This document shows positions 2,593 to 19,757 of a DNA stretch of 64,000 bases, piece by piece; within the stretch, counting starts at the first letter, position 1; each line of letters opens with the position of its first letter. The notes beneath the pieces were generated by a model, which ran no database searches, was not told where the DNA came from, and saw nothing but the letters and a program-made list of their open reading frames with translations. Source of the DNA: Yinghuangia soli (GTDB lineage: Bacteria > Actinomycetota > Actinomycetes > Streptomycetales > Streptomycetaceae). The position numbers and the translations under genes were made by a program. The stretch is from assembly GCF_021502675.1 (NCBI RefSeq), contig NZ_JAKFHA010000002.1, positions 111,670 to 175,669 on the forward strand, read 5' to 3'.

Positions 2593-3222
2593 ATGTCGCA
2601 CTTTGCCGTTGTCGACGCGGGCCGGGTGAGTGTCCCCGAGCCGGATCCGCTGATCGCCCCGCTCCTGTACGACGGGATCCTCCCGGTCGCCGCGGTACGC
2701 GACGTGGACCCCGGTACGGCGCCGCCCGAGATCCGCACGGTTTCGGGGCTCATGGTGTTCGTCTCCGCGGTTCAGCGCGCCGAATTGGAACGCTGGTGTG
2801 CCGACGAGGGCATTGCCGTACGCCGACGACCCGACGTCTGGGGCGACCTCCTTGAGCCTTACCTCGACACCGAGTTCACCGACCGCATGCGCGAAATCAC
2901 CGACGAGCGCCTGAGCGCGCGCGGACTCGGTCCGGAGGAAGTCGCCGACATCCGCGAGCGCGTGGCACCGCTCATGATCATCTTCAATGACTTCCTCTGG
3001 GACGAGTACCACCTCGGCCTCTGCGACCTGCTGGATGCGCTCGGCGGCGACGTCATCCCCGAAGCCTGGGCAGACGGGCGCTCCCTCGACGTAGCGGCGG
3101 CGCGGGTCAGGCTCATGGCGGGCTTCCCCGACCACGCCGCCTTTGTGGCCTGGGCGATGCGCATCGCCGACCTTGGCTATGCCGCCAACGCGACGGGCGC
3201 TGCATTGCCGCCGCCCCGCTGA
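2593..3222 (+). CDS. hypothetical protein
   Basis: Unrecognised 209-residue soluble protein. ATG at 2593 is the only plausible in-frame start near the coding-like part, and no clear ribosome site precedes it. The sequence is acidic and balanced, with helices in the second half (MREITDERLSARGLGPEEV, WDEYHLGLCDLLDAL) and no signal peptide or membrane span. Codon use is typical of the window. It is divergent from the zinc-ribbon gene and convergent with the TPR gene that ends 12 bases downstream. No function can be assigned from sequence. Confidence 0.65.
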   Translation: MSHFAVVDAGRVSVPEPDPLIAPLLYDGILPVAAVRDVDPGTAPPEIRTVSGLMVFVSAVQRAELERWCADEGIAVRRRPDVWGDLLEPYLDTEFTDRMREITDERLSARGLGPEEVADIRERVAPLMIIFNDFLWDEYHLGLCDLLDALGGDVIPEAWADGRSLDVAAARVRLMAGFPDHAAFVAWAMRIADLGYAANATGAALPPPR

Positions 3223-3233
3223 AGCCCTACTGG

Positions 3234-4604
3234 TCAGAAGGGTGGATCGTCCGTGTAACCGCTCTTCCCCGGCCGCCACGGGTCGTCGAGGGTGCACCCA
3301 TTCCCGGCGCGCTTCCGGGCGCGATGCAGCGCGACGGCTTCCCGCGGGCGTCCGGTCAGGATGAGCAACCGGGCCAAATAGACGTCGTCATAGTCGGTTT
3401 CGGCAGCCTCTTCGAGCAAGGCGACGGCCTCATCGACCCGGCCGGCAGCCTCAAGCACGCGGGCGATGCCGCCGGTTCGGCCGTACTCCTCTTCGGACCG
3501 CGCCTGCGCGGCCGCGAGGGCTTCCTCGTGGCGGCCGGCTTCGGAAAGCAACCACGGGCGGGTGCCGCCCGTGGCCGTGGCCAGAGCGGGATTGGCATCG
3601 GCGGCGTCGAGTACGTCGAGGGCCAGGTCGACGCGCTCGGCGTCGACCAACAGCTCCAGCAGGCCCAAGAGCATGCAGGGACAGGACGCCTTCTCCACCA
3701 CGGGTTTGGCTTCCTCGACGGCTTCGGCCAAGCGGCCGAGTTCGGCCAGTTGCATCACGAGCCGGGTCCCGGTCCAGGTGGCGTTCCGTGCAGCGGACGC
3801 GCGGAGGAAGGCGACTGCTTCGTCGGCACGATCCAGGACCACGAGCCTGTCCACCAGAGCCGGGGTCGCGGCGTCCGCGTAGCGGTCGGCCAGTGCGTAC
3901 AACTCCTCGAAGCGGTCGTGGCGGGCCAGCAGCCATGCCAACTCCCGTACGTTGTCCGCGCTGTCGGTCGCGGCGACGTGCGCGCGGAGCAACGCGGTCG
4001 CCTCGTCGGTACGCCCCGCACGGTCGAGTACCCGGGCCAGCATGATCGCTGCGTTTCGCGGCTCGCCGGTGCGCAGTCTCTGATCGGCCAAAGGTTCAAG
4101 GAGCGCGATCACTTCGGCATCACGACGTCCCGCATCAGTCGCCTCGACCAAGGCCTCCAGCAGGAGCGAGTCGTGCACATGCGGGCGCAACTCCGCTATT
4201 GCCTCGTCCACGCGCCCCACAGAGGCGAGTAGGCGTGCCGTCTCGCCTCGGGCAAAGCGCTGGTGCCCACCGACATAGCCGCGCAGCAGTTCCAGCGCGT
4301 CGTCGGTTCGCCGCCACTCCTGGAGCAGGGTCGCGGCTTCCCTGACCGCGTCCCACCAACCCGTCTCGACGTACGGAGCGAGGAGTTCCCATGCCTGCTC
4401 CCGCTGTCCCCGGTCGGCCAGTTCACGGACCGACCGCTGCGCGCAGAACCAGTCACCGGCCCGCGCGGCCTCGACAAGCGTGTCCAGATGACCGTGCTCG
4501 ACCAGCAGGTCCACGGTGATCGGCGGGACACCGGTGTACAGCTGCGACTGTCTCTCGAGATCTTCAGCATTCACCGCCCGGACGGTAGGCACCCGCACCG
4601 ACAT
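3234..4604 (-). CDS. tetratricopeptide-repeat protein
   Basis: A 456-residue all-helical protein made of repeated ~34-residue units with the TPR spacing of small and large hydrophobics. Examples are LAELGRLAEAVEEA, LLSEAGRHEEALAAA and VLEAAGRVDEAVALLEEA. Such repeats form a protein-binding solenoid, so a scaffold or regulatory partner role is likely, but the partner is not visible. It has no signal peptide. The start is uncertain: ATG at 4604 has no ribosome site, and GTG at 4574 (VNAEDLERQ) is an alternative. It is followed on the other strand by an unrelated gene, so it is probably monocistronic. Confidence 0.75.
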   Translation of the reverse strand: MSVRVPTVRAVNAEDLERQSQLYTGVPPITVDLLVEHGHLDTLVEAARAGDWFCAQRSVRELADRGQREQAWELLAPYVETGWWDAVREAATLLQEWRRTDDALELLRGYVGGHQRFARGETARLLASVGRVDEAIAELRPHVHDSLLLEALVEATDAGRRDAEVIALLEPLADQRLRTGEPRNAAIMLARVLDRAGRTDEATALLRAHVAATDSADNVRELAWLLARHDRFEELYALADRYADAATPALVDRLVVLDRADEAVAFLRASAARNATWTGTRLVMQLAELGRLAEAVEEAKPVVEKASCPCMLLGLLELLVDAERVDLALDVLDAADANPALATATGGTRPWLLSEAGRHEEALAAAQARSEEEYGRTGGIARVLEAAGRVDEAVALLEEAAETDYDDVYLARLLILTGRPREAVALHRARKRAGNGCTLDDPWRPGKSGYTDDPPF

Positions 4605-4657
4605 TGGAGGAAGGCCGGCGCGATCGAGGCCCGGCAGGCAGACCCGCCAGGACCGGC

Positions 4658-5251
4658 CTAAGGACAGCCAGGTCCGCTGCCCGCACCTGCGGTGATCAGG
4701 TCGGCGAGAGCTCCGACGGCCTGCTCCGGGGTCGTCCTGCCGCGGTTCAGTTCCGTGGCGATCGCCTCCGCGGCGCCCAGGATGCCGAGGCAGCGCAGGC
4801 GGAGTGCCTCGGGGGCGAGACCGGAGTACGGGGCCAGGGCGGTGCCCATCACCTCGGCATAGGCGTCCAACATCTCCTGTTGCAGCGACGCGACTTCGGG
4901 GTCGCCCTTCAGCGCCGCCGACACCGCGGTGAACTCCGGTACGTCGGTGGCGCACGCGAAGTACGCGGTGCTCAGCACGCGGGCGATGGCCTCGGCGTTC
5001 GCGGGGGCGGCCTTCAGCGCCTCGTCCAAGGCCTGCCGGTGGCGTTCGTCGAGGCGCCGGTAGAGCGCGAGCAGCAGCCCCGGGCGAGTGCCGAAGTGGT
5101 CGTACGCGATCGGCCTGCTCACCCCGGCCGCCTCGGCGAGCGTGACCAGTGTCAGCGCGTCCGCACCCTGGGCGCGGACGATTCCCAGGGCGGCGTCGAG
5201 CAGTTGCTCGCGCCGGGCGGCCTTGGTCAGCCGGGTCGGCGATGTGGTCAT
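4658..5251 (-). CDS. TetR-family regulator
   Basis: 197 residues. An N-terminal TetR helix-turn-helix is seen at residues ~10-55 (RREQLLDAALGIVRAQG, LAEAAGVSRPIAYDHFGTR). A variable helical ligand-binding domain follows. The gene is divergent from the Rossmann oxidoreductase at 5346, and the 94-base gap holds a near-perfect inverted repeat (5277-5323). The simplest reading is that this protein represses itself and its neighbour until a small molecule binds. The ATG at 5251 has AAGGAGGGGC just upstream. Confidence 0.9.
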   Translation of the reverse strand: MTTSPTRLTKAARREQLLDAALGIVRAQGADALTLVTLAEAAGVSRPIAYDHFGTRPGLLLALYRRLDERHRQALDEALKAAPANAEAIARVLSTAYFACATDVPEFTAVSAALKGDPEVASLQQEMLDAYAEVMGTALAPYSGLAPEALRLRCLGILGAAEAIATELNRGRTTPEQAVGALADLITAGAGSGPGCP

Positions 5252-5276
5252 GCCCCTCCTTGCGTTCCCCCGAGTC

Positions 5277-5323
5277 TACCTACACGATGTAACCTACGAA
5301 ATGTAGGTTACAAAATGTAGGTA
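5277..5323. promoter_or_regulatory. 47-bp inverted-repeat operator of the TetR/oxidoreductase pair
   Basis: Two 21-base arms, 5277-5297 and 5303-5323, are inverted copies differing at three bases and separated by GAAAT. The inner core is GTAACCTAC (5289-5297) with GTAGGTTAC (5303-5311); the outer arms are TACCTAC and GTAGGTA. The position between two divergent starts fits a TetR operator that could hold two dimers. Confidence 0.85.
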
Positions 5324-5345
5324 CGCCGCGAGCAGAGGAGCCACG

Positions 5346-6362
5346 ATGGGGAACATCAAGCCGGTACTGATCCTCGGCGGTTCGGGACAAGCAGGTTCGG
5401 CGACGGCAGCCCTCCTGCGCCGGTGGCACCCGGATCTGCCATTGGCCATCGCAGGCCGCGACCTCGGCCGTGCCCAGCGGGCGGCCCGCGAACTCGGTGC
5501 ATCGACCGCCCTCACCGTCGACATACAGCGCAGCGACCTCGGACTCCCCGCGGACAGCGGCGGCTACTCCGCCGTGGTCGCCGCGCTCTGGGACGGTCGG
5601 CTCAGCGGCCTGCGCTACGCGCAGGACCACGGGCTGCCCTATCTCAGCGTTTCCAGCGGTCTCGTCGACATCGCCACGGAGGTCGTCGCCGGTGCGCAAC
5701 GCCCGGGCGCCGCACCGGTCCTGCTGGCCAGTCACTTCTGTGCGGGCACCGTGGTGCTCGCGGCGCTGCACTGCGCCCGGGACTTCGGCCGCGTCGACCG
5801 CATACGCATCGGTGCCATCCTGGACGAAACCGACACCGGCGGCCCTGCGGGCGTGGCGGATCTGGAGCGTTGGTCCACGGCCACCACGGCCGGTCTCGTA
5901 CGCCGTGACGGAGTCTTCACCTGGGTCGCCGGTGCCGATGCGGAGACGGAGATCGCCTCCCTCGACGGCACCGTCCTGCCCGCGGCGCAGATCGCGGTCC
6001 TCGACGTCCCCAGCGTGGCGCTCGCGACGGGTGCGCCGGACGTCCGCTGCGACTTCGCGGTCGGCGAGTCCGCAGGCCGGCGCCGCGGCGGTGCGGCGTC
6101 GGTCGAGATCAGGATCGAGATCGACGGTGCCGACCACTCGGGAGAACCGCTGTCGGTACGCCGCTGCCTCGTCCACGACGCGGGCCAGCGGCCCCTGACC
6201 GCGCTCGGCATGGCGCTCGGCGTCGAGCGCTTGCTGGGTCTGCGCGGGGACGCCGCCGCACCGGGCGTCCACACCCCCGAGTCGCTGATCGATCCGGCTT
6301 ATGCGGCCGAGCGGTTGGCGGAGATCGGCGCGGTCTTCGCCGACGCCTCGGCTGTGCACTGA
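5346..6362 (+). CDS. saccharopine dehydrogenase-like NAD(P)-binding protein
   Basis: A 338-residue protein with an N-terminal Rossmann fold: a hydrophobic strand then GGSGQAGSATA at residues ~11-21, and the basic AGRDLGRAQRAARELG typical of NADP-binding saccharopine reductase-like proteins. The rest follows that family's layout, with SHFCAGTVVLAA in the catalytic region. Substrate cannot be told. ATG at 5346 follows AGAGGAG. It is probably controlled by the divergent TetR gene through the shared operator. The 3' end carries an 18-base tandem duplication covering the stop codon. Confidence 0.75.
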   Translation: MGNIKPVLILGGSGQAGSATAALLRRWHPDLPLAIAGRDLGRAQRAARELGASTALTVDIQRSDLGLPADSGGYSAVVAALWDGRLSGLRYAQDHGLPYLSVSSGLVDIATEVVAGAQRPGAAPVLLASHFCAGTVVLAALHCARDFGRVDRIRIGAILDETDTGGPAGVADLERWSTATTAGLVRRDGVFTWVAGADAETEIASLDGTVLPAAQIAVLDVPSVALATGAPDVRCDFAVGESAGRRRGGAASVEIRIEIDGADHSGEPLSVRRCLVHDAGQRPLTALGMALGVERLLGLRGDAAAPGVHTPESLIDPAYAAERLAEIGAVFADASAVH

Positions 6363-6399
6363 TCCTCGGCTGTGCACTGATCCACGAGTGCACTGATCC
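6346..6399. repeat. tandem repeat spanning a stop codon
   Basis: CCTCGGCTGTGCACTGAT occurs twice in direct tandem (6346-6363, 6364-6381). A third, decayed copy (GTGCACTGATCC) ends at 6399. The TGA stop of the oxidoreductase lies inside the first copy, so the later copies lie just 3' of the gene. Confidence 0.85.
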
Positions 6400-6428
6400 A
6401 CGCCTGGCCATCGGGACCACCGGGCCTC

Positions 6429-6461
6429 GCCTCCGGCTGCGCCTCTTGCGCGGCCGGAGGC
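6429..6461 (+). terminator. hairpin after the oxidoreductase gene
   Basis: GCCTCCGGC (6429-6437) pairs with GCCGGAGGC (6453-6461), and the loop holds a further GCGC/GCGC helix. It lies between convergent genes, so it may stop both transcripts. There is no T-run. Confidence 0.6.
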
Positions 6462-6505
6462 AAGTGCGCCTGTCTCGGCCGTCGAACCCCGTCGGCCGCG
6501 CTGCC

Positions 6506-7036
6506 CTACGCGGGACGGATCGGCGTGCTGCTCTGCCCCTGCGCGCGGCCGGACAACTCCGCGTCCAGGGTCTCCTGGGCGACGCGCATGGATTCGGCGT
6601 AGGCCGGCTCCTGCAGCCGCTGCCACATCTGGTCCTCGGGGACGTCCTCGACGTGGCAGGTCACCCACCAGATGTTGCCGAAGGGGTCCTTCACGCGGCC
6701 GCCGCGCTGGCCGAAGGCGCTGTCCGAGAGCGCCGTGACGACCTGGGCGCCCGCGGCGACCGCCCGAGCGAACGTGTCGTCCGCGTCGGCCACGAACACC
6801 CGCAGCAGGCTCGGCAGCGCGGGCCAGTCCGCGCGGCGGTCGAACGCCAGGACGACGGTGTCGCCGACGCGGATCTCGCCGTGCCCGATCCCGCCGTCCT
6901 CGGTCTGCACTCGCGCGATCTCCTCGCCGTCGAACACCGCGGCGACGAAGTCGAGGAAAGCCCCGGTGTCGTCGGTGACCACCCACGGCGCCACGCTGGT
7001 GTAGCCCGCCGGTACGGCACTGCTCTGGTCGGCCAT
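6506..7036 (-). CDS. VOC-superfamily (glyoxalase/PhnB-like) protein
   Basis: 176 residues with the VOC betaalphabetabetabeta pattern. Features are PWVVTDDTGAFLDFVAAVF near the start, a strand GEIRVGDTVVLAF, then VFVADADDTFARAVAAGA and the C-terminal VKDPFGNIWWVTCHVED. This family includes dioxygenase, glyoxalase and resistance proteins, and the PhnB-like subset is mostly of unknown substrate. ATG at 7036 has GGAAGGA at a good distance; an upstream in-frame ATG would add a poor N-terminus. It is followed downstream by the convergent hairpin at 6429. Confidence 0.8.
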   Translation of the reverse strand: MADQSSAVPAGYTSVAPWVVTDDTGAFLDFVAAVFDGEEIARVQTEDGGIGHGEIRVGDTVVLAFDRRADWPALPSLLRVFVADADDTFARAVAAGAQVVTALSDSAFGQRGGRVKDPFGNIWWVTCHVEDVPEDQMWQRLQEPAYAESMRVAQETLDAELSGRAQGQSSTPIRPA

Positions 7037-7129
7037 GGCATTCCTTCCGTCGGTCCTTGCTGCCGACGACGACGTTAGGCGGGATATAGGCAAGGTCTGT
7101 TCCTACTCATGAACGACTCGCCGTCAATG

Positions 7130-7807
7130 TCATGCCGCGGCGGCGTTGCCGAGGAGGACCTTCAGGAGTTCGTCCGGGGCATCCCGCATGACGTTGTGGC
7201 CGGAGTCGACCGCGCGAGCACGCCACGCGGGGTCCGCGGCGAGGCGTTCGTACGTCACCTTGAAGGGGGACTCCGTCGGCCAACCCGTCGCGTACACGTA
7301 GTCCTTCTGCCCGAACCGGTCGAGTGTGCCGGTCAGCCGGATCGCCTGCATGAGGGACGGCAGCGGGTGCGGGGTCGCCCGCGGGTCGAAGAAGTCGAGC
7401 GGGGCGCTGGTGTAGCCGTCCTCGCCGACGCCGTTCAGGTACCACTCGCGCTCGTTGTCGGTGACCAACGACCAGACGGAGTCGCCGTTTTCGGGCACAG
7501 TGGCGTCCACGTAGACGAGGCCGGCGACGCGGTCGGGCAGGCGGTCCGCAGCTCCGGTGATGACCATGCCGCCGTAGCTGTGCCCGACCAGGATCGCGTC
7601 GCTGATGTCCTCGTCTTCCAGCAGGTTCACGACGTCCGCGATGTGGGTGTCGAGGTTGATGCCCGCGTGCAAGAGGTGCTTGCGGGCGCCGATGCCGGTC
7701 AAGGTCACCGGGTACGCCTCGTGCCCTTCCGCGCGCAGACTGCGGGCGAGCGGCTCGAAGGTCCACGCGCCGTGCCAGGCGCCGGGGATCAGGACGAAGG
7801 TGGCCAT
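7130..7807 (-). CDS. alpha/beta hydrolase
   Basis: 225 residues with the hydrolase fold. The oxyanion strand is TFVLIPGAWHGAW, the nucleophile elbow is GHSYGG with Ser77, and the C-terminal catalytic His is in DSGHNVM (about 204). The pattern resembles the salicylate-esterase/methylesterase-like group common in actinomycetes, but the ester cannot be named. ATG at 7807 is preceded by AAGGAG eight bases away; a GTG three codons earlier is less well placed. It lies 57 bases downstream of the SnoaL-like gene on the same strand, so they probably share a transcript. Confidence 0.85.
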   Translation of the reverse strand: MATFVLIPGAWHGAWTFEPLARSLRAEGHEAYPVTLTGIGARKHLLHAGINLDTHIADVVNLLEDEDISDAILVGHSYGGMVITGAADRLPDRVAGLVYVDATVPENGDSVWSLVTDNEREWYLNGVGEDGYTSAPLDFFDPRATPHPLPSLMQAIRLTGTLDRFGQKDYVYATGWPTESPFKVTYERLAADPAWRARAVDSGHNVMRDAPDELLKVLLGNAAAA

Positions 7808-7863
7808 GGGACTCACTCCTTGCGTGAACTACCGGTGATCGCGGACGACTTGCGGGCCGCGGC

Positions 7864-8250
7864 CTATTCCGGGCGGGACTCCGGGCGGTCCAGAATGCGC
7901 AGCCAGGAGCCGTCCGGCTGCTGCCGGGCGACCTGGACCCGGGTGCCCGTGTCGTCGGCGGACTTCGTCGAGGTCAGCGCCAGGTCGCCGTACCGGACCG
8001 TGGGAAGCGGCTCCTCGACGGTGAAGGTCACGTCGCTGTGGTCGAGCATCCGGGCCATGACGGCGCGGATCGCCGCGCGCCCGACCGTCGAACTGCCGGG
8101 CGGGAACGCGAGGACGGCGTCCGGGGCGTAGAGCGCGGCGATGCCGTCCAGGTCACGGGCGTTGGCACGGGCCACGAACAGCCGGGCGATGTCCTCGGGG
8201 GTCCGGGCGGTCTCGTGCGGCACGGGCAGGGTCTCGTGGATCTCGGTCAT
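7864..8250 (-). CDS. SnoaL/NTF2-like protein
   Basis: 128 residues with the cone-shaped NTF2 fold signature. There is a helix with ARLFVARANARDLDGIAALY, then APDAVLAFPPG, an internal helix (GRAAIRAVMARML) and strands ending DGSWLRILDRPESRPE. Members act as isomerases, dehydratases or ligand binders. The best guess is a small enzyme working with the downstream hydrolase. GAGGAG lies upstream of the ATG. The divergent LysR gene 94 bases away is the likely regulator of this two-gene unit. Confidence 0.8.
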   Translation of the reverse strand: MTEIHETLPVPHETARTPEDIARLFVARANARDLDGIAALYAPDAVLAFPPGSSTVGRAAIRAVMARMLDHSDVTFTVEEPLPTVRYGDLALTSTKSADDTGTRVQVARQQPDGSWLRILDRPESRPE

Positions 8251-8344
8251 GGCGTGCTCCTCTCTCTTCTCTCGCTGTCCAGCCTGCGCCCGCCGTGATC
8301 AGAAGTCCAAGAGATGGTCGATCTGAGAACTAGAATCAGCAGTT

Positions 8345-9244
8345 ATGGAACTCCGGCAGCTCATGTACTTCGTGGCGGTGGCCGAGGAGCGGAACTTCAC
8401 CCGGGCCGCCGACCGCGTGCACGTCTCCCAGCCGGGCGTCAGCGCCCAGATCCGGCAGCTCGAACGGGAGCTGGGGGAGGAGCTGTTCGACCGGTCCGGG
8501 CGTACGGTCCGGCTGACCGAGGCCGGCGAGGCGGTCCTCCCGTACGCCCGCGCCGCCCTCGCCGCGGTCGATGGCGCGCGCCGGGCGGTGGACGAGCTGA
8601 CCGGGCTGCTCCGCGGGCACGTGGCCGTCGGCATGGTGACCTCGCACAATGTCGATCTCCCGGCGCTGCTGGCCGAGTTCCATGCCGCGCACCCTGCCGT
8701 GGAGATCACCCTGGGCGAGGCGGACAGCGACGCCCTGCTGGACGGGCTGCGGAGCGGCCGCTACGACGCGGCGATCGTGAGCGTCGGCGCCGGGAGCCCG
8801 GCAGGGCTCGGCATGCAGGTCGTGGAGGACCAAGCCCTGGTGGCCGCGGTCGCGTCCGGCCACGAACTCGCCGTCCACGACGCGATTTCGCTCGACTCCC
8901 TGCGCGACCGGCCGCTGATCAGCCTGCCGCGCGGCACCGGGATGCGGGCCCGGTTGGACGAAGCGTGCACGGCGAACGGCTTCAGCCCGAAGATCGCCTT
9001 CGAGGCCGGAACTCCCGAAGTCCTGGCCGAACTTGCCGCGCGCGGACTCGGGGTCGCGATCCTCCCGGAAGGCTTCGCCGCGGCCCGCGCCGACCGGCTG
9101 AAGTCCGTGCGAATCGGCCGGCCTGCGCTGCGCGGCCGACTGGTGTTCGCGTGGCGTGCCGAGGGACCGCAGGGGCCGGCCGGGCGGGCGTTCGTCGGCC
9201 ATGTGCGTGCCGCCCTGCGGGCCGGCAAGCGGCCGCGGTCGTAG
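8345..9244 (+). CDS. LysR-family regulator
   Basis: 299 residues. The N-terminal winged HTH is clear (MELRQLMYFVAVAEERNFTRA, VHVSQPGVSAQIRQLERELG), followed by the substrate-binding fold with VAVGMVTSHNVDLPALLAEF and the second lobe ending ARGLGVAILPEGF. It is divergent from the SnoaL/hydrolase unit, the usual LysR target arrangement. No convincing T-N11-A operator could be fixed by eye in the 94-base gap. The inducer is unknown. Confidence 0.9.
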   Translation: MELRQLMYFVAVAEERNFTRAADRVHVSQPGVSAQIRQLERELGEELFDRSGRTVRLTEAGEAVLPYARAALAAVDGARRAVDELTGLLRGHVAVGMVTSHNVDLPALLAEFHAAHPAVEITLGEADSDALLDGLRSGRYDAAIVSVGAGSPAGLGMQVVEDQALVAAVASGHELAVHDAISLDSLRDRPLISLPRGTGMRARLDEACTANGFSPKIAFEAGTPEVLAELAARGLGVAILPEGFAAARADRLKSVRIGRPALRGRLVFAWRAEGPQGPAGRAFVGHVRAALRAGKRPRS

Positions 9245-9288
9245 CGCCGCGGAATCCTGCGGCCGACGTCACCGCCGCATCGTGGGCG

Positions 9289-9489
9289 TCAGCCGAACGC
9301 GGACTGCACGTACACCGTGCGCGGCGCCTGGTACTCGACGATGGTGATCAGCTGCCCCACCTCGAAGCTCTCGCCGGGCGTGACCGGGTACGCGAGGAAC
9401 GCCTCCGAGCCGCCGCGCACCATGACCATGACCTCGCCGACCAGTCCGGGCCCGACCCGCCCGGTGACCTTGCCCCGCAACCCGACCAT
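9289..9489 (-). CDS. small OB-fold protein, NfeD-like
   Basis: A 66-residue protein that opens with MVGLRGKVTGRVGPGLVGEV and continues with GGSEAFLAYPV and VGQLITIVEYQAPRTVYV. Alternating strands and the G-x-V-G-x-V pattern resemble the C-terminal soluble OB domain of NfeD-like membrane proteins, but no membrane part is present. It converges with the LysR gene and is divergent from the thiC leader. ATG at 9489 has no strong ribosome site. Function is unknown. Confidence 0.65.
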   Translation of the reverse strand: MVGLRGKVTGRVGPGLVGEVMVMVRGGSEAFLAYPVTPGESFEVGQLITIVEYQAPRTVYVQSAFG

Positions 9490-9587
9490 GCGCCCATTGT
9501 GCGGCCCGCTCCGCATCCGGGGCAGCGGGATCCCCCTCTGGTCGCGGGGGCCGACCGTATGCCAGGGTGTATGTCGACAGATACACG

Positions 9588-11415
<1,828 letters not shown>

Positions 11416-11456
11416 CGCGCGCCGCCTGGCCGCACCTGACCCGCAGCACGTGAGCC

Positions 11457-11482
11457 GCCGCCCCGGACGCACCCGGGGCGGC
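11457..11482 (+). terminator. thiC terminator hairpin
   Basis: GCCGCCCCGG (11457-11466) pairs perfectly with CCGGGGCGGC (11473-11482) around a 6-base loop, 41 bases after the thiC stop. There is no T-run, as is common in high-GC actinomycetes. Confidence 0.75.
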
Positions 11483-11589
11483 ACTCCGCTGCCCGGCCTC
11501 CGGCGGCCGCGCCGCTCTTTCCCCGCACCCGGCACGCCCTCCACGGGGGTGAGGACATGCCGGACGCCGGCGCACAGCCCGACCGGAAT

Positions 11590-11637
11590 CACGAAGCGGC
11601 GGCCCGGCCCCATTCGGGACCGGACCGCCGCTTCGTG
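11590..11637 (-). terminator. long hairpin after the first LGFP gene
   Basis: Two 22-base arms (11590-11611 and 11616-11637) pair with two G-U-type mismatches around ATTC. It lies 48 bases beyond the LGFP stop. A related hairpin with the same GCGGCGG...CCGCCGC stem follows the second LGFP gene. Confidence 0.85.
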
Positions 11638-11684
11638 CCTGTTCGCCGGACGAATTGCCGCCCTACTGGATCGCTGCTCCGGAG

Positions 11685-13640
11685 TTATCCGGTGACGACG
11701 ATCTGGGTCTTGCCGGTGGCTGCCGTCCAGGTGATGTAGCCGTGCTCGAAGTCGGCACGCCGGCCGCCCGGGATGCCGTACTCCCCGCGCGTCGGGTAGC
11801 CGAGCGGACCGGAGTTCCAACCTTGCGAGGCCCAGGCCTGGCCGATGCCGCCGTAGATCTCGACGGCGCCGGTGGTGGCGGTCCAGAAGATGGAGCCGCG
11901 CTCGAAGACGACGTAGCGCCCCCGCTTATCGCCAGTGACCATCTCGTCGGTCAGCGGGAACCCGAGACCTGCGGGCCCGCCGAGCTCAAGCCAACGCGCC
12001 TTGATACCGCCGTGCAGCTCGTGCGGACCGGACGCGGCCGACCAGTAGATCGAGCCGCGCTCGAAGTGACTGACCCGCCCGTTGCCGATCGCCTGCTCCC
12101 CGGTGGTCGGGTAGCCGAGGAACCCGCGTTCCCCGCCGAGCTCCCACCACTTGTTGAGAATGCCGCCGTGGATCTCCTGGGCGCCCGTCTTCGGCGTCCA
12201 GTAAAAGCGGACCTTCTCGAACACCTGGTAGCGGCCGATGCCGTCAGGTGCCGCGAGTTCGTCGGTCGTGGCAGCGCCGTACCACCGCGCTCCGGCACTC
12301 CAGGCCGAGGCAATGGCATCGCGAACGGCGTGCGGCCGCCAGTTGCTCGGGCCCCACGTGAGGATGCCCTTCTCGAACGTCTGCTTGCGGCCCCTGCCAT
12401 CGCCGATGTCGGATTCATCGTCCTTGGGGTAGCCGAGGCCGGCGATTCCGCCCGAATCCCGCCACGACTGTCCGATGGCACCGAACAACAGGTGTGCCCC
12501 GCTTGTCGGGCTCCAGGCAAGGACTCCGCCACTGAAGTCCTGTACGTAGCCGTGTTGTGCCGAGCCGACCGGATTTTCCCGGGGGTAGCCGAGCCATCCT
12601 GATACGCCACCCAACTGCGCCACGCGCACCCAAATCGGCGCAGGGACGAAGGAGGCACCGCTTGCCGACGACCATACGAGTGCCGAACCGTCAGTCAGTG
12701 GTACGGACTTGCCAACGCCGTCAGGCAGGTTCGCGGTGACGCCCGCGGGACTCGGGAAGTTGCTGTTTGCCCGCTTCAGCTGCTCGAAGAGATCCAGGAG
12801 CGGACCGCACAGCTGATGTCCGTTGATGGTGCTGCAGGCCGCCCACGGGTCGATGGGGCTCGCTGGGACGGTGAAGGTGTACGAACCCTTGGTCTTGTTG
12901 CCGGCACGGTCCTGGGCCTGGACATTCAAGACATGCGTACCGGCTTGGTGGGGGTGCCACTGTATGTCGAGACGCCCCGAGGCATCTGCGAACAGACGGC
13001 AGTCGGAGCCCGGCGTAGGAGGAGAGTCGAATTGGTACTCGTAGCAGTAGATGTCCTCGCTGCCCGGATCGGGGGTCACATGGAAGATGCCCGTCTGGGA
13101 GACGCCCTTGCGCGGGATGCCGCCGTCCGAAGGCCAGTCCTCGGACGAGACGGTGAAGGTCGGCGTCGTGCTGTCCACGCTGAAAGGGCAACCGGTGGCG
13201 ACAGCCGAGGGCTCACCTCCGACGCGGGTCTGGACGGTCCAGCTGTACGTATGGCCGTCCTGCAGCGTCAGTACCTGGAAGCTGACGGCCGACGTGCTGA
13301 AGTACGTGGAGTCAGTGGTGTACTCGGTCCAGGGTGACCCCGGAGCAGTGAGGTCCTGAAGACGCAGGGTGGACTCGAAGCTGCGATTCAGATCGCGGGG
13401 CGCGATCTTCGCGGTGAGTCGTACGGCGGTCTTGTTGATCCAGCCGCAATTCGGCCCTGTCCCATTGCGAGGCGTCGGGCTGATCGTCAAATCGTAGGGC
13501 GCATCCAACTGCTGCGGCTCTGTATCGGCGGCCGCGGGTGTAGCGGACAACAGCCCGCCGACCAGTGCCAATCCGGCAAGGCCGGTCGCCACGATGGACT
13601 TGCCGAATCTTTGGTGCGTGCGTCGGATACGCACCCCCAC
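11685..13640 (-). CDS. secreted LGFP-repeat protein 1
   Basis: 651 residues, exported. The N-terminus is MGVRIRRTHQRFGKS, then a hydrophobic helix and a signal-peptidase site at TPAAADTEP. Residues ~45-250 form a fibronectin/immunoglobulin-like region ending in TFTVPASPIDPW. From ~320 to the end are six or seven ~52-residue LGFP repeats of the type LGGxxGxLGYP...GRxxxFExGxIYWS...GAxEIHGGI. LGFP modules are known from actinobacterial wall proteins and are thought to bind the cell wall. The GTG start at 13640 sits five bases after GGAGG. Its last 190 residues match paralogue 2 except for one His/Arg change. The ligand is unknown. Confidence 0.88.
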   Translation of the reverse strand: MGVRIRRTHQRFGKSIVATGLAGLALVGGLLSATPAAADTEPQQLDAPYDLTISPTPRNGTGPNCGWINKTAVRLTAKIAPRDLNRSFESTLRLQDLTAPGSPWTEYTTDSTYFSTSAVSFQVLTLQDGHTYSWTVQTRVGGEPSAVATGCPFSVDSTTPTFTVSSEDWPSDGGIPRKGVSQTGIFHVTPDPGSEDIYCYEYQFDSPPTPGSDCRLFADASGRLDIQWHPHQAGTHVLNVQAQDRAGNKTKGSYTFTVPASPIDPWAACSTINGHQLCGPLLDLFEQLKRANSNFPSPAGVTANLPDGVGKSVPLTDGSALVWSSASGASFVPAPIWVRVAQLGGVSGWLGYPRENPVGSAQHGYVQDFSGGVLAWSPTSGAHLLFGAIGQSWRDSGGIAGLGYPKDDESDIGDGRGRKQTFEKGILTWGPSNWRPHAVRDAIASAWSAGARWYGAATTDELAAPDGIGRYQVFEKVRFYWTPKTGAQEIHGGILNKWWELGGERGFLGYPTTGEQAIGNGRVSHFERGSIYWSAASGPHELHGGIKARWLELGGPAGLGFPLTDEMVTGDKRGRYVVFERGSIFWTATTGAVEIYGGIGQAWASQGWNSGPLGYPTRGEYGIPGGRRADFEHGYITWTAATGKTQIVVTG

Positions 13641-13700
13641 GCTTGCCTCCAGAAGTGTTTGAGTTTCCGCGTCTTCGCGCGGCGGTGCACACTATCGGGT
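13641..13700 (-). promoter_or_regulatory. shared leader/promoter of LGFP gene 1
   Basis: The 20 bases before the GTG (13641-13660, minus-strand ACTTCTGGAGG core) are the same before all three LGFP genes. Upstream lie a degenerate copy of the CACGCG palindrome (13667-13682) and GATAGTGTGCACC, a candidate -10 region also seen before gene 2. Confidence 0.6.
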
Positions 13701-13789
13701 GGTGCGGACAGGCGGTTGGGCACCCGGCCTTACCCCACTCGAATCATCCGAAGTTGGTCGGAGTTGTGCAGACTGAACGGGCATTTGAG

Positions 13790-13825
13790 GCGGCGGCCCG
13801 GCCCCTCTCAGGATCGGACCGCCGC
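13790..13825 (-). terminator. hairpin after the second LGFP gene
   Basis: GCGGCGGCCCG (13790-13800) pairs with CGGACCGCCGC (13815-13825), with one G-U in the transcript, 41 bases past the stop of LGFP gene 2. It is related in sequence to the hairpin after gene 1. Confidence 0.75.
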
Positions 13826-13865
13826 TTCACCTTTCGTGCCGTTTTACGAGCTTGTTCTTACCTGG

Positions 13866-16649
13866 TCAGCCGGTGACGACGATCTGGGTCTTGCCGGTGG
13901 CTGCCGTCCAGGTGATGTAGCCGCGCTCGAAGTCGGCACGCCGTCCGCCCGGGATGCCGTACTCCCCGCGCGTCGGGTAGCCGAGCGGACCGGAGTTCCA
14001 ACCTTGCGAGGCCCAGGCCTGGCCGATGCCGCCGTAGATCTCGACGGCGCCGGTGGTGGCAGTCCAGAAGATCGAGCCGCGCTCGAAGACGACGTAGCGC
14101 CCCCGCTTATCGCCAGTGACCATCTCGTCGGTCAGCGGGAACCCGAGACCTGCGGGCCCGCCGAGCTCAAGCCAACGCGCCTTGATACCGCCGTGCAGCT
14201 CGTGCGGACCGGACGCGGCGGACCAGTAGATCGAGCCGCGCTCGAAGTGGCTGACCCGCCCGTTGCCGATCGCCTGCTCCCCGGTGGTCGGGTAGCCGAG
14301 GAACCCGCGCTCGCCGCCCAGCTCCCACCACTTGTTGAGAATGCCGCCGTGGATCTCCTGGGCGCCGGTCTTCGGCGTCCAGTAGAAGCGGACCTTCTCG
14401 AACACCTGGTAGCGGCCGATGCCGTCAGGTGCCGCGAGTTCGGGAGTCGTGGCGGCTCCGTACCACTGCGGACCGGCAGACCAGGCGGTGCTGATGGGGC
14501 CGGTGATGATCTGCACGCCTGCCGACGGGCTCCAGGTGATGATGCCCTTCTCGAACGTCTGCTTCCGGCCCTTGCCGTCGCCGAGGTCGGATTCCTCGTC
14601 GACCGGGAATCCGAGTGCCGTCACGCCGCCGGCCTTCTCGTAGGCGATGCCGATTCCGCCGAAGACGACGCGCGCTCCGGTTTGCGGGCTCCAGTAGATG
14701 GACCCGGCCGGGATTCTGTCCGCGGAGAAGGTGGCGTACTGACCGCGGCCGTCGGCGGTCGGACGCTGATCGGACTTCGAGTCTCCGAAGCCCGAGTTCA
14801 GCCATCGCGTGTGAAGCGGTCCCCAGATGGCGAACTGGGGCCAGTACTCGTAGATTTGCCCGTTCTGGAACTCCTGTCGGGGAGGGATATTCCCGGCGTG
14901 TCCCCATGTATGGCTGGTCGGAAGGCCGACCACCGCCTCGCCGCCGAGCGCCTGCCACTTTTTCAAGATCCCAAAGCTGACCCAGAGTGGCTGTCCGTAT
15001 TGCACGACGGATGTGACCAGGACATTCTCGAACATCTGGATCTGCCCGTAGCCGGGCCGCAGTTCCGCATTGCCGAGCGGACGGCCCAGGGTGCCCTGGT
15101 ATGTCATGTACTGCTCGAGGAAGGGCGCCATCACCGCGGCGTACTTGCCGGCCACCGGGGTCTCGGTGACGAGGCCGTTCTGGAACGCGATGCTGGCGTA
15201 GGGCTGGCCGGGCCGGGTCGTGGGGTATCCCAGCGGCCCCCCGAGACCGCCCAGTTCCTGCCAAACCGCCAGGACCCCGGGGGAGAGCGCGACGGCGCCG
15301 CCCTCCGGCGTCGAGTAGATCGTGAACTTCGGGAAGGTGATGTACTGCGCCTTCCCGTCCGGCGTCGTGGTCAGCTCGGACGTCGGCGCGTCGGCCAGCG
15401 TCGGAGCAGGCACCTGCGCCCGGAAGGTCTCGGCGATCTTGCCGGTCAGGCTCCGGGTCTTGAAGCTCGGGTCGTTCGGGTTCCAGAAGACGATGCCCTT
15501 CTGGAACTGGATGGCCCCGGGCCAGTAGTAGGAGTACCCGTTCGGGTAGCCGAGCGGCCCGGCGATCCCGCCATTCGCCTCCCAGTACCTCCGAAGGTCG
15601 GCCTTCACGTCGCGCGCACCCGTGGTGGGCGACCAGTAAATGGCCGAACCGTCAGCGAGTTCGATATAGCGGCCGATCCCGTCCGGCGCGGTCAGCATGC
15701 CGCTGGTGACCTTCGGGAAGCTCGAGTACATGCCGCGGAAGAAGCGGTAGCGCTGGTAGAGCGATCCGCACAGCTCGACTTCGTACTCCGAACCGCAGAC
15801 ACTCCACGACCAGTCGTGAGTCGGCTTGCCGGCCGGCGGCTGGGGCGCGTCGAATTGGTACGTGGTCTCCCGCGACGCATGGCCGACCCCGTCGATGGCC
15901 CAGACCTTGAGCGTGTTGCGCCCGGCCTTGACACGGATGTGGGCCATGCCTTTGGCATCGACGCTCAGGTCCTGGTAGGACTCGTCGTTCAGCGCGTACC
16001 TATAGCGCAGGTCGGCGGGATCGGGTTCGTCCGGGTTCGAGAAGAAGAACGCGCCGAAATCGCCGCCGTAGGAAGCAGGCGGTGTCGAGCTGCCGACCGG
16101 CGGGAAGTCCGGCGAACGGACGACGGGGGCCGTCGGCGCCACGCTGTCGACCCGGAACCGGCACCCGACGGCGACTTCCGAGAAGTTGACGCCGTCGGAA
16201 ACCTGCGCCAGCGCCTCGAAAAGGTGGTTGTGCGGCAGCACGCCGGCGGAGGCGCTGCTGCGCGACCCGTTGGCGACGTCCTTCCAGCCGAGGTCGATGA
16301 CGGGCGAGCTCGGGTCGGTCAGATCCCGCAGGCGGAAATTGGCATGCAGGGTGGCGTCCTCGGGATCCGGATCCCGGAACGTCGCGGTCAGCTCGATCCC
16401 GCCGTTATTGCCGTACGGGTTGTACACCTTGCCGCAGACGCCCGCTTCGGCCACGGTGCTTGTCGGCGTCGGCCACACCGTGAAGTCCTTGGGTACGGAC
16501 GGGGCGTTTGCGCTTGCCGAGGCCGGAATTTCGTCCGCAGCGGCAGGGGTCGCACTCAGGACACCGGCAGCCAGAGCCAGACCGGTGATACCGGTGACCG
16601 CCAGGGATGTGCGGGATCTCGGGTGTGTGCGTCGGCTGCGCACCCCCAC
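13866..16649 (-). CDS. secreted LGFP-repeat protein 2
   Basis: 927 residues. The signal peptide ends TPAAADEIP. Residues ~35-270 form a beta-sandwich region containing FRLRDLTDPSSP and GRNTLKVWAIDG. More than ten LGFP repeats follow, with phrases such as GGIAGPLGYPNGYSYYWPG and FQKGIVFWNPNDPS. The N-terminal two thirds match paralogue 3, whereas the last 190 residues match paralogue 1 with one difference, so the gene is a mosaic. The GTG start at 16649 has the shared GGAGG leader. Likely role: cell-surface or extracellular binding protein; no catalytic domain is visible. Confidence 0.88.
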   Translation of the reverse strand: MGVRSRRTHPRSRTSLAVTGITGLALAAGVLSATPAAADEIPASASANAPSVPKDFTVWPTPTSTVAEAGVCGKVYNPYGNNGGIELTATFRDPDPEDATLHANFRLRDLTDPSSPVIDLGWKDVANGSRSSASAGVLPHNHLFEALAQVSDGVNFSEVAVGCRFRVDSVAPTAPVVRSPDFPPVGSSTPPASYGGDFGAFFFSNPDEPDPADLRYRYALNDESYQDLSVDAKGMAHIRVKAGRNTLKVWAIDGVGHASRETTYQFDAPQPPAGKPTHDWSWSVCGSEYEVELCGSLYQRYRFFRGMYSSFPKVTSGMLTAPDGIGRYIELADGSAIYWSPTTGARDVKADLRRYWEANGGIAGPLGYPNGYSYYWPGAIQFQKGIVFWNPNDPSFKTRSLTGKIAETFRAQVPAPTLADAPTSELTTTPDGKAQYITFPKFTIYSTPEGGAVALSPGVLAVWQELGGLGGPLGYPTTRPGQPYASIAFQNGLVTETPVAGKYAAVMAPFLEQYMTYQGTLGRPLGNAELRPGYGQIQMFENVLVTSVVQYGQPLWVSFGILKKWQALGGEAVVGLPTSHTWGHAGNIPPRQEFQNGQIYEYWPQFAIWGPLHTRWLNSGFGDSKSDQRPTADGRGQYATFSADRIPAGSIYWSPQTGARVVFGGIGIAYEKAGGVTALGFPVDEESDLGDGKGRKQTFEKGIITWSPSAGVQIITGPISTAWSAGPQWYGAATTPELAAPDGIGRYQVFEKVRFYWTPKTGAQEIHGGILNKWWELGGERGFLGYPTTGEQAIGNGRVSHFERGSIYWSAASGPHELHGGIKARWLELGGPAGLGFPLTDEMVTGDKRGRYVVFERGSIFWTATTGAVEIYGGIGQAWASQGWNSGPLGYPTRGEYGIPGGRRADFERGYITWTAATGKTQIVVTG

Positions 16650-16710
16650 GCTTGCCTCCAGAAGTGTTTGTGATCGCGCGTATTCGCGTGGCGGTGCACA
16701 GTATCGAGTG
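16650..16710 (-). promoter_or_regulatory. shared leader/promoter of LGFP gene 2
   Basis: It has the same GGAGG leader as its paralogues. CGCGCGTATTCGCGTG (16675-16690) is an imperfect copy of the 16-base palindrome upstream of gene 3. Minus-strand GATACTGTGCACC follows at 16693-16705 and matches the candidate -10 region of gene 1. Confidence 0.6.
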
Positions 16711-16797
16711 GCGCGAAAGAGCGGTTGGACACCCCGCCTTCTTCAGGAGAAGTCGTCTGCGGTTTGGCGGGGTTGTGGAGACTGGCCCTGCATGCGA

Positions 16798-16910
16798 AGC
16801 GGGGGGGGGGGGCGGGGGGGGGGGCGCCCCCGACCACTTTGTTGGGGGGTTTGTGGCGCGGCCCCGGGGGGGCGGGGGGGGGCCCCCCCCGGGGGGCCGC
16901 CCCCCCGCTT
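16798..16910. other. G/C homopolymer block replacing a terminator
   Basis: Runs of up to 12 G or C sit exactly where the GCGGCGG...CCGCCGC terminator of the paralogous genes would be. The left flank GCATGCGAAGC and right flank GCTTCACTTTTCGTGCC remain. It is most likely a failed read through a strong hairpin, so the true sequence is probably another LGFP terminator. Confidence 0.75.
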
Positions 16911-16948
16911 CACTTTTCGTGCCGGTTTACGAGCTTGTTCTTACCTGG

Positions 16949-19702
16949 TCAGCCGGTGACGACGATCCGGGTCTGGCCGGTGGCTGCCATCCACGTGATG
17001 TAGCCGTGCTCGAAGTCGGCGCGCCGGCCGCCGGGGATGGTGTACTCCCCGCGCGTCGGGTAGCCGAGCTTGCCGGAGTTCCAGCCCTGGGAGGCCCAGG
17101 CCTGGCCGATGCCTCCGTAGATCTCGACGGCGCCGGTGGTGGCGGTCCAGAAGATGGAGCCGCGTTCGAAGACGACGTAGCGGCCGCGGCCATCCGAGGT
17201 CGCCATTTCGTCGGTGAGCGGGAACCCGAGGCCGTTGGGGCCGCCGAGTTCGAGCCAGCGCTGCTTGATGCCGCCGTGCAGCTCGTGCGGGCCGGTCGCG
17301 GCGGACCAGTAGATCGAGCCGCGCTCGAAGTGGCTGACCCGCCCGTTGCCGATCGCCTGCTCATCGGTCGTGGGGTAGCCGAGGAATCCGCGTTCCCCGC
17401 CGAGCTCCCACCACTTGTTGAGGATGCCGCCGTGGATCTCGTGGGCGCCGGTCTTCGGCGTCCAGTAGAAGCGGACCTTGTCGAACACCTGGTAGCGGCC
17501 GACACCATCAGGCGCGGTGAGTTCCGCGGTCTTGGCGGCGCCGTACCACTGCGGCCCGACGCTCCAGGCCTTGGCGATGTCGTTGCGAATTGCGAGGGCC
17601 AGGTAGTCCGCCGGACTCCACGTGATGAAACCCTTTTCGAACGTCTGCTTGCGGCCCTTGCCGTCGCCGATGTCGGACTCTTCGTCGAGCGGGAACCCGA
17701 GCGCTTCGACACCGAGCTGCTGGTATGTGTAGCTGATCCCGCCGAACACGACGCGTGCCCCGGTCGCCGGGCTCCAATAGATGTACCCGTACGGCAGTGT
17801 CCCGCTGTAGAAGTAGGCGTACTGACCGACCCCGTCGGACGTCGAGGTTTGGTCGTAACCCAGGTCTCCGAGGCCCGAGGTCAACCATCGCTGATAGATG
17901 GGCCCCCATGTGGCGGACATCTTGGTGTTGGACCATTCGTAGATGCGCCCGTTTTGGAAGTGCTGCCGCGCGCCGGCCCCCCACACATCTCCGGCCGGAA
18001 GGCCGATGACGGCTTCACCGCCGACCGAGAGCCACTTCTCCCAGAACCGTCCCTGCACCGCGAAAGCGCTCTTCGCGGCGTCCGAGTAGGCCAACATGCC
18101 CTTCTCGAAGAGCTGGACCTGTCCGTAGCCGTCGCGCGGTTCAGCGGCGCCGACCGGGCGGCCCAGGGTCGAGCTCCAACGCGTGTAGGACTCGAGGAAC
18201 GGCGTCATGATGGCGACGTACTGGCCTGCGGTTGCGCTCTCGGTGAGGACACCGTTCTTGAACGCGGTGCTCCCGGCCGGCTTGCCGGCCCGGTTGACCG
18301 GGTAGCCCAGCGGACCGTCGATGCCGCCCGACGCCTGCCAGGCGTGCAGGACCTCGGGGGACAGCGCGACCGCGCCGCCCTCAGGGGTCGAGATGATCGT
18401 GAACTTCGGGAAGGTGATCATCTGCCCCTTGCCGTCCGGCGTCGGGAGCAGGTCGCTCGTCGGCGCGTCGGCAAGTGTCGGAGCAGGGACGACCGACCGG
18501 AAGGTGTCGGCGATCGCACCGGTGAGGCTACGGGTCTTGTACGACGCATCGTTCGGGTTCCAGAAGACGATGCCCTTCTGGAACTGGATGACGCCGGGCC
18601 AGTAGTACGAGTAGCCGTTCGGGTAACCGAGCGGCCCGGTGATCCCGCCGTTCGCCTCCCAGTACTGCCGGAGGCTTGCCTTCACATCGCGCGCGCCGGT
18701 TTTGGGCGACCAGAAAATGGCCGAACCGTCCGCGAGTTCGATGTAGCGGCCGATACCGTCCGACGCGGTCAGGACACCGCTGGTGACCTTCGGGAAGGTC
18801 GCGTGCATCCCGCGGAAGAATTCGTAGCGCTGGAGCAGCGGGCCGCACAGCTCGAACTCGTACTTGGAGCTGCAGAAACCCCAGGACCACTCGCCGGTCG
18901 GCCGGCCGACCGGCGGTGTGGGCGCGTTGAACACGTACGTGGTGGTCGGCGACACGTTGCGCGCGCCGTCGATGGCCCAGACCTTGAGCGTGTTGCGCCC
19001 GGCCTTCGTCAGGATCTGGGCGATGCCTTTGGCATCGACCTGCAGTTCCTGGGAATTGCCCTCATTGAGCGAGTAGTAGTAGCGCAGGTCGCCCGGTTCG
19101 GGGTCATTCGGCGTCGAGACGGAGAACGACCCGTAATCGCCGCCGTAGGAGGCGGCCGGTGTCGGGCTGCCCAGCGGCGGGAATTCCGTCGAGCTGACGA
19201 CCGGCGCCGCGGACGCCACAGCGTCGACGCGGAAGCGGCAGCCCACCGTGATCTCGGACAGGTTCGTGCCGTCCGAGACCTGCGCCGTCGCCTCGAACAG
19301 GTGACCGTTGGGCAGCTGGCCGGAGTCGACGGAGAGCGGCGACCCATTGGCGACGGTCTTCCAGCCGAAATCGACGGACTGGGCCGGGTCGGTCAGGTTC
19401 TTCAGGCGGAAATTCGCCAGCAGGGTCTTGTCCTCGGGATCGGCATCCCGGAAGACCGCCCAGACGCCGACCATGCCGCGCACCTTGCCGCAGACGCCCT
19501 CTTCGGGCAGGTTGCTCGTCGGCGCCGGCGACAGGTTGAAGTCGTGCAGTGTCGGCGCTTTGGTGCTGGTGGACGGCGGAATCTCATCCGCCGCCGCCGG
19601 GGTCGCGCTCAAAAGACCAGCAGCGATGGCCAGGCCCGTGAGGCCGGTGACTGCTATCGATGTGCGGGAACCAGGGTGTGTGCGTCGGCTGCGCACCCCC
19701 AC
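16949..19702 (-). CDS. secreted LGFP-repeat protein 3
   Basis: 917 residues with the same plan as paralogue 2: signal peptide ending TPAAADEIP, an N-terminal beta-sandwich region (FRLKNLTDPAQS, GRNTLKVWAIDGARN) and a long run of LGFP repeats to the C-terminus. It diverges from paralogues 1 and 2 at many positions in the last 190 residues, so it did not take part in their recent homogenisation. GTG at 19702 follows GGAGG at five bases. It is upstream-most in the cluster, and each gene has its own leader and terminator, so they are probably separate transcripts. No enzymatic domain is visible. Confidence 0.88.
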   Translation of the reverse strand: MGVRSRRTHPGSRTSIAVTGLTGLAIAAGLLSATPAAADEIPPSTSTKAPTLHDFNLSPAPTSNLPEEGVCGKVRGMVGVWAVFRDADPEDKTLLANFRLKNLTDPAQSVDFGWKTVANGSPLSVDSGQLPNGHLFEATAQVSDGTNLSEITVGCRFRVDAVASAAPVVSSTEFPPLGSPTPAASYGGDYGSFSVSTPNDPEPGDLRYYYSLNEGNSQELQVDAKGIAQILTKAGRNTLKVWAIDGARNVSPTTTYVFNAPTPPVGRPTGEWSWGFCSSKYEFELCGPLLQRYEFFRGMHATFPKVTSGVLTASDGIGRYIELADGSAIFWSPKTGARDVKASLRQYWEANGGITGPLGYPNGYSYYWPGVIQFQKGIVFWNPNDASYKTRSLTGAIADTFRSVVPAPTLADAPTSDLLPTPDGKGQMITFPKFTIISTPEGGAVALSPEVLHAWQASGGIDGPLGYPVNRAGKPAGSTAFKNGVLTESATAGQYVAIMTPFLESYTRWSSTLGRPVGAAEPRDGYGQVQLFEKGMLAYSDAAKSAFAVQGRFWEKWLSVGGEAVIGLPAGDVWGAGARQHFQNGRIYEWSNTKMSATWGPIYQRWLTSGLGDLGYDQTSTSDGVGQYAYFYSGTLPYGYIYWSPATGARVVFGGISYTYQQLGVEALGFPLDEESDIGDGKGRKQTFEKGFITWSPADYLALAIRNDIAKAWSVGPQWYGAAKTAELTAPDGVGRYQVFDKVRFYWTPKTGAHEIHGGILNKWWELGGERGFLGYPTTDEQAIGNGRVSHFERGSIYWSAATGPHELHGGIKQRWLELGGPNGLGFPLTDEMATSDGRGRYVVFERGSIFWTATTGAVEIYGGIGQAWASQGWNSGKLGYPTRGEYTIPGGRRADFEHGYITWMAATGQTRIVVTG

Positions 19703-19757
19703 GCTTGCCTCCAGAAGTGTTTGCGAACACGCGAATTCGCGTGATCGTGAACACTAG
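19703..19757 (-). promoter_or_regulatory. leader/promoter of LGFP gene 3 with perfect palindrome
   Basis: CACGCGAATTCGCGTG (19728-19743) is a perfect 16-base palindrome. Imperfect copies sit at the same place before genes 1 and 2. The minus-strand TAGTGT just upstream could be the -10 box, which would place the palindrome near the transcription start as an operator. Confidence 0.65.

Follow-up and report, generated by a model that had tools for sequence, protein, structure and literature searches.

The last gene of a tandem array of three LGFP-repeat genes in Yinghuangia soli is a mosaic whose front has diverged far from that of its neighbor and whose tail is nearly identical to it. We conclude that this structure very probably arose by non-reciprocal segmental homologous recombination (gene conversion) within the array, with the tail of the second gene copied over that of the last. 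The window analyzed, to which the positions below refer, is a stretch of 64,000 nt (assembly GCF_021502675.1, contig NZ_JAKFHA010000002.1, 111,670-175,669, forward strand). The three open reading frames lie on its minus strand at 11685-19702 and are transcribed in the order p3 (16949..19702, 917 aa), p2 (13866..16649, 927 aa), and p1 (11685..13640, 651 aa), p2 being the likely donor and p1 the likely acceptor of the tail. The converted tract in p1 (11688..12261, minus strand) starts at codon 460, partway through an LGFP repeat, and ends with the last sense codon; it matches 13869..14442 (minus strand) in p2. On the other side, p1 adjoins a convergent gene at 9676-11415 (+), which we take to be thiC from its protein.

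The array was compared within a genus sample of three genomes, including that of Y. soli itself (G000), which is represented by one strain. The sister species (G001), the one related genome with a comparable array, carries two tandem homologues, q1 (L031:3601-5535) and q2 (L031:5556-7841); the third genome (G002) gave weaker matches to p1 only, the best at E 6e-48. At 644 aa, q1 is close to p1 in length, both lack the middle insert, and both are last in their arrays, whereas q2, as read from the alignment, has part of the extra middle sequence of p2 and p3. The thiC-side flank is not comparable with G001, because thiC has no match there at E 1e-100.

From column 2279 of the codon alignment to its end, p1 and p2 differ at 12 of 574 coding nucleotides; 11 of the differences are synonymous and one exchanges His and Arg. 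The sequence-only reading had proposed that p1 and p2 are set apart by one position in their C-terminal 190 residues and p3 by many, and this was borne out: across the C-terminal 189 residues (from AAPDGIG, p1 residue 463) the single difference is the H/R exchange at 11743, and p3 is 91.5% identical to p1 and 91.0% to p2. The same reading held that p2 elsewhere resembles p3 and not p1, in agreement with amino acid identities in the N-terminal part of 66.2% for p2/p3 and 38.2% for p1/p2. In the tail, nucleotide identities are 97.9% (p1/p2), 89.2% (p1/p3), and 88.9% (p2/p3), compared with 53.1, 51.9, and 74.8%, respectively, in the N-terminal part. Equal identity along the whole genes, which would have spoken against an exchange, is therefore not what p1 and p2 show. 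From the N-terminal part to the tail, dS falls from 0.925 to 0.083 for p1/p2, from 1.028 to 0.331 for p1/p3, and from 0.486 to 0.341 for p2/p3.

The near identity includes silent sites. Between the upstream part and the tail, fourfold-site differences drop from 61/121 to 8/113 for p1/p2 (Fisher 8.2e-14) and from 61/117 to 25/103 for p1/p3; there was no significant drop for p2/p3 (96/289 to 27/103, p 0.22) and none for q1/q2 of the sister species (69/140 to 34/69, p 1). These Fisher values are descriptive, because the split points were picked after inspection of the data (the MaxChi edge for p1/p2, a profile for the L043 pair described below); MaxChi with shuffles allows for such a choice. MaxChi placed the p1/p2 break between codon-alignment columns 2278 and 2279, with a signal reached by 0 of 1000 shuffles. 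The longest run of polymorphic sites at which p1 equals p2 spans 27 sites, compared with at most 11 in 5000 shuffles, and at third positions only it spans 17, compared with at most 10. For p2/p3, we noticed a long shared run in the N-terminal part (1/5000 shuffles) and a weak MaxChi signal at the 5′ end (19/1000).

Strong purifying selection could in principle have kept the two tails alike since duplication with no exchange at all. The tail is indeed better conserved than the N-terminal part at the protein level in all 10 pairs compared, and dN/dS for p2/p3 is about 0.18 in the tail and about 0.53 in the N-terminal part, indicating a stronger protein-level constraint on the tail. Third positions are likewise more similar toward the tail in p2/q2 and p3/q2 (MaxChi 0/1000 each) and in p1/q2 (1/1000), and therefore part of the tail likeness is general; p3/q2 also has a mild tail drop at fourfold sites (p 0.029). 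Against this explanation, p1 and p2 differ at 8 of 113 fourfold sites in the tail, whereas the figures are 27/103 for p2/p3, 34/69 for q1/q2, and 40/91 for p1/q2, and the trees of the two parts conflict. On the fourfold sites we reject selection as the sole cause, and an origin without exchange is extremely unlikely.

The N-part tree is ((p2,p3),(p1,(q1,q2))), in which p2+p3 are split from the rest with support of 100/100, and q1+q2 receive 77/85 to 87/90. A p1+p2 grouping is rejected in this part (AU 7.8e-19 for protein, 1e-4 for DNA), and p1+q1 and p1+q2 are neither favored nor rejected (AU 0.07-0.18). The tail tree is (q1,(q2,(p3,(p1,p2)))), with p1+p2 supported at 99/97 for protein and 100/99 for DNA. 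Here, p2+p3 is rejected (AU 0.008 for protein, 0.0008 for DNA), as are p1+q1 (0.003, 0.0004) and p1+q2 (0.0006, 2e-12). Adding nine further LGFP proteins of the genus left the order of the tail tree the same (AU 0.007 for p2+p3, 0.0003 for p1+q1). The trees of tract and flank thus conflict significantly: p1 groups across species by its front but within the genome by its tail. Because the N-part tree favors neither p1+q1 nor p1+q2, the proposed correspondence of p1 with q1 draws on length, the absent middle insert, and gene order.

Both edges of the tract were located. The left edge falls between 12262 and 12261 in p1, at residue 460 and 13 residues before VFEKVRF, in line with the earlier placement of the boundary near that motif; in the structural model of p1, this point falls within a single repeat, between a helix (451-454) and a strand (470-474). 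The right edge coincides with the stop codon: in the alignment, p2 and p3 stay alike for about 50 nt beyond the last codon, whereas p1 parts from both at the final base of its last sense codon and differs from there on. With two edges, a patch replacement is therefore favored over one crossover, although similar hairpins farther downstream of the p1 and p2 tails make this less certain. The alternative is that p1 was a hybrid gene from the start, born when a single partial tandem duplication or unequal crossover put the 3′ end of p2 behind a different N-terminal part. Such an origin would fit the different copy numbers (two genes in G001, three here) and the leader and hairpin that are alike at p1 and p2. 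A single crossover, however, would have brought along the 3′ flank of p2, whereas p1 already differs from p2 and p3 in the base just ahead of the stop codon, and p1 is near q1 in length and shares with it the lack of the insert. The right edge disfavors a single unequal crossover as the source of the p1 tail, and we regard a hybrid-gene origin as improbable.

The hairpin downstream of p1 (11590..11637, minus strand) is GC-rich and terminator-like, lies 47 nt after the p1 stop codon between the convergent p1 and thiC, and has an unbroken stem of 22 pairs that includes two G-U pairs. None of 200 shuffled sequences was as stable (z −6.75), compared with 1 of 200 for the p2 counterpart (z −2.82), and the two hairpin sequences are 88% identical over 42 nt. 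It is perhaps a two-way terminator for p1 and thiC. Upstream, an identical 24-base leader that ends in the GTG start codon and contains a ribosome-binding-site-like GGAGG precedes p1 (13638..13661), p2 (16647-16670), and p3 (19700-19723), all on the minus strand; a search of the genome allowing up to three mismatches returned three matches, all exact. About 26-28 nt before each start codon lies a palindrome-like CACGCGAATNCGCG motif (13668-13681, 16677-16690, and 19728-19743), of which the p1 copy has two mismatches. Although the 64-kb window shows no enrichment for the motif (7 matches, 7.82 expected), its equal placement before the three genes could mark an operator. Whereas p1 and p2 are each followed by a clean hairpin, the p2-p3 spacer contains about 105 bases (16801-16906) composed largely of long runs of G and of C, which has the appearance of an error of sequencing or assembly at a GC-rich hairpin.

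That damaged-looking spacer, together with a draft assembly of 91 contigs and an exact p1/p2 run of up to 146 nt, raises the question of whether a repeat was mis-resolved. Against an artefact, both copies are in one contig with different flanks, and private differences are spread along the tract: with p3 as the reference, five of the 12 are private to p1 and seven to p2. We also know of no way in which an assembler would equalize two diverged tails yet keep 12 differences. An assembly artefact is therefore very unlikely.

The tract alone cannot tell donor from acceptor, but the distances to p3 point to copying from p2 to p1. The p2 tail is as far from p3 (dS 0.341) as the p1 tail is (0.331), which makes p2 the simpler donor; a copy in the other direction would have put the p2 tail at a dS of about 1.03 from p3, as in the N-terminal part of p1. 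The p2 tail instead stands at a normal distance from p3 (0.486 in the N-terminal part). Grouping of the p1 tail with q1 or q2 is rejected as well, and copying from p1 to p2 would call for p1 to have received a p3-like tail beforehand; we consider this direction unlikely. At three of the seven p2-private sites, p2 has the q1/q2 state and p1 the p3 state, a hint that p3 may have contributed. There is perhaps also an older conversion layer directly upstream of the tract in p1 (12262..12389, minus strand), where the sequence is of the p2/p3/q2 type and not of the q1 type: over 44-45 codons, a few bases of which overlap the tract, amino acid identity is 63.6% for p1/p2, 60.0% for p1/p3, 54.5% for p1/q2, and 34.1% for p1/q1, and MaxChi places a p1/p3 edge at column 2129.

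Together, the runs, MaxChi, the trees, and the fourfold sites strongly support the earlier suggestion of a mosaic from recombination within the genome between p1 and p2, whereas its description as recent holds in a relative sense: the tail dS is 0.083, compared with 0.341 for p2/p3, and the event is not very recent. In the gene conversion that we favor, a segment of about 570 nt from the end of p2, which encodes three complete LGFP repeats and part of another, would have replaced the homologous 3′ end of p1 after the split between p2 and p3, and five changes in p1 and seven in p2 would have followed. Recombination between neighboring copies, presumably RecA-dependent, needs long similar stretches. 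The repeat-coding 3′ end, kept similar by purifying selection, could supply them, and conversion would then copy silent sites too. The exchange would take place where the paralogues are alike enough and end with the homology, upstream in a diverging repeat and downstream at the stop codon.

PF08310 is the only Pfam family above the cut-off in each of the three proteins, with scores of 282.5, 341.4, and 366.2 bits compared with a curated cut-off of 22 (E 9.2e-86 for p1); none of them matched an enzyme family of either Pfam or NCBIfam. An AlphaFold2 model of p1 (mean pLDDT 85.9, pTM 0.57) has low-confidence residues 1-43, probably a signal peptide as far as the model indicates, then two β-sandwich regions and, from residue 279, seven helix-plus-sheet repeats. 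A Foldseek search matched the repeat part to the C-terminal LGFP domain of Corynebacterium glutamicum MytA (PS1; 6swz) with a TM-score of 0.89 by target length, an rmsd of 1.9 over 217 columns, and 34% identity, placing the one protein modeled in the MytA LGFP fold; weaker matches included FN3 tandems. MytA also has a mycoloyltransferase domain, whereas p1-p3 match no enzyme family and p1 has two β-sandwich domains before its repeats. Binding of the MytA LGFP domain to peptidoglycan-arabinogalactan has been reported, as cited in the accessible part of PMC11299179, and by this homology the p1-p3 tails may serve as MytA-like wall-binding stalks. We consider it quite unlikely, although conceivable, that the tandem genes form a loose cassette system, in which identical leaders and homogenized tails would act as recombination arms that swap N-terminal β-sandwich domains between loci over a common anchoring stalk.

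The genome of Y. soli contains a second tandem LGFP pair, L043 (G000:C1:371000-382000; 2606-5755 and 5948-9103), in which silent divergence also falls toward the 3′ end. Its fourfold differences drop from 133/344 upstream to 28/163 in the LGFP part, a weaker drop than in p1/p2, compared with 143/285 to 53/120 between one member and its sister-species relative. MaxChi was significant for this pair (0/1000), with an edge well upstream of the chosen split, and the longest-run test was not (1123/5000). In G001, the pair tested out of the three LGFP frames of a second array, s51a/s51b, went from 120/262 to 45/101, and MaxChi gave 62/1000 for this pair and 148/1000 for q1/q2; a mild tail drop appeared in s51b/c12x (p 0.03). 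Of the pairs tested, one in each of two Y. soli arrays thus showed 3′ homogenization, and the two from G001 did not. Recurrent concerted evolution, as 3′ homogenization in related genomes, was not found in q1/q2, the array of the one related genome that has it. When the Y. soli genome was searched with the p2 tail (40 of 269 candidates scored), p1 matched at 98% and p3 at 89%; among 12 other matches, those spanning 170 nt or more reached 64-70%, and four shorter matches of 37-136 nt reached 74-86%. Genome-wide homogenization of LGFP tails was not seen among the candidates scored.

The earlier suggestion that recombination keeps a wall-binding module uniform agrees with these data in part. The weaker 3′ drop in the L043 pair and the stronger protein constraint on the tail are in its favor; against it, the p3 tail differs by about 11% in DNA, q1/q2 show no drop, and the tract begins inside a repeat and ends where homology ends. 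Selection for a uniform anchor could favor conversion events, but would not be required to explain them.

Homologues of p1 at E 1e-40 occur in 3 of 297 family genomes, its own included, all of the same genus, and a scan of genome contigs added one distant Mycolicibacterium locus. PF08310 was found in 16 of 121 family genomes at E 1e-12 and in 6 of 149 phylum genomes at E 1e-18, with Y. soli counted in both. The repeats are expanded in the genus, with 33, 39, and 8 matches in G000, G001, and G002 (E 1e-12) compared with 1-7 in 13 other family genomes and 0 in 105 of the 121. A crude motif filter applied to 17 stretches yielded 17 frames, none from L045, L054, or L059; nine of the frames are the tree outgroups and eleven entered the model alignment. 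Applied to four separate stretches from three other family genomes, the filter gave a single frame each in L061 and L063 but no frame in L060 or L062; it misses members, because the PF08310 search lists LGFP matches in L060 and L062. L060 (G005:C6:50000-66000), from another genus, holds a tandem pair with internal LGFP repeats (3705-6680 and 8147-12058) that is 80% alike over about 2.2 kb toward the front and differs at the ends, the reverse of the p1/p2 arrangement. Read directly, the two frames have tails of another repeat type, which we take to be FG-GAP/VCBS-like, and they fall outside the tail comparison because they have no LGFP end.

The p1/p2 tail offers a well-bounded tract with edges where homology ends; a sister species allows comparison, and one other tandem LGFP pair in the Y. 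soli genome shows a similar but weaker trend. It makes LGFP tails risky for orthology assignment in such expanded families, and it provides a small test case of whether the anchoring parts of surface proteins are homogenized by selection or merely by leftover homology. The process itself, ordinary recombination, is not new, and we present the tail as a clean example of it; our literature search returned no paper joining LGFP and gene conversion. Segmental conversion between adjoining surface-protein genes is described for the Brucella omp2a/omp2b porins in the accessible part of PMC7050475, which resembles p1/p2, although the porin genes have opposite orientations and exchange segments that include loop-coding ones, whereas p1 and p2 share a strand and one 3′ tail. 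The closest known pattern is the 3′ concerted evolution of Helicobacter pylori babA/babB. That system, as far as the available portion of PMC3960876 describes it, extends over many strains and ties bab conversion to expression, whereas the tract described here is a single clear one, seen in one genome and shared by tandem LGFP genes, with no counterpart in the sister pair. In babA/babB and homA/homB, according to the same portion, the 5′ part is alike between strains and the 3′ part within a strain, much as the 5′ part of p1 follows its lineage and the 3′ part its genome.
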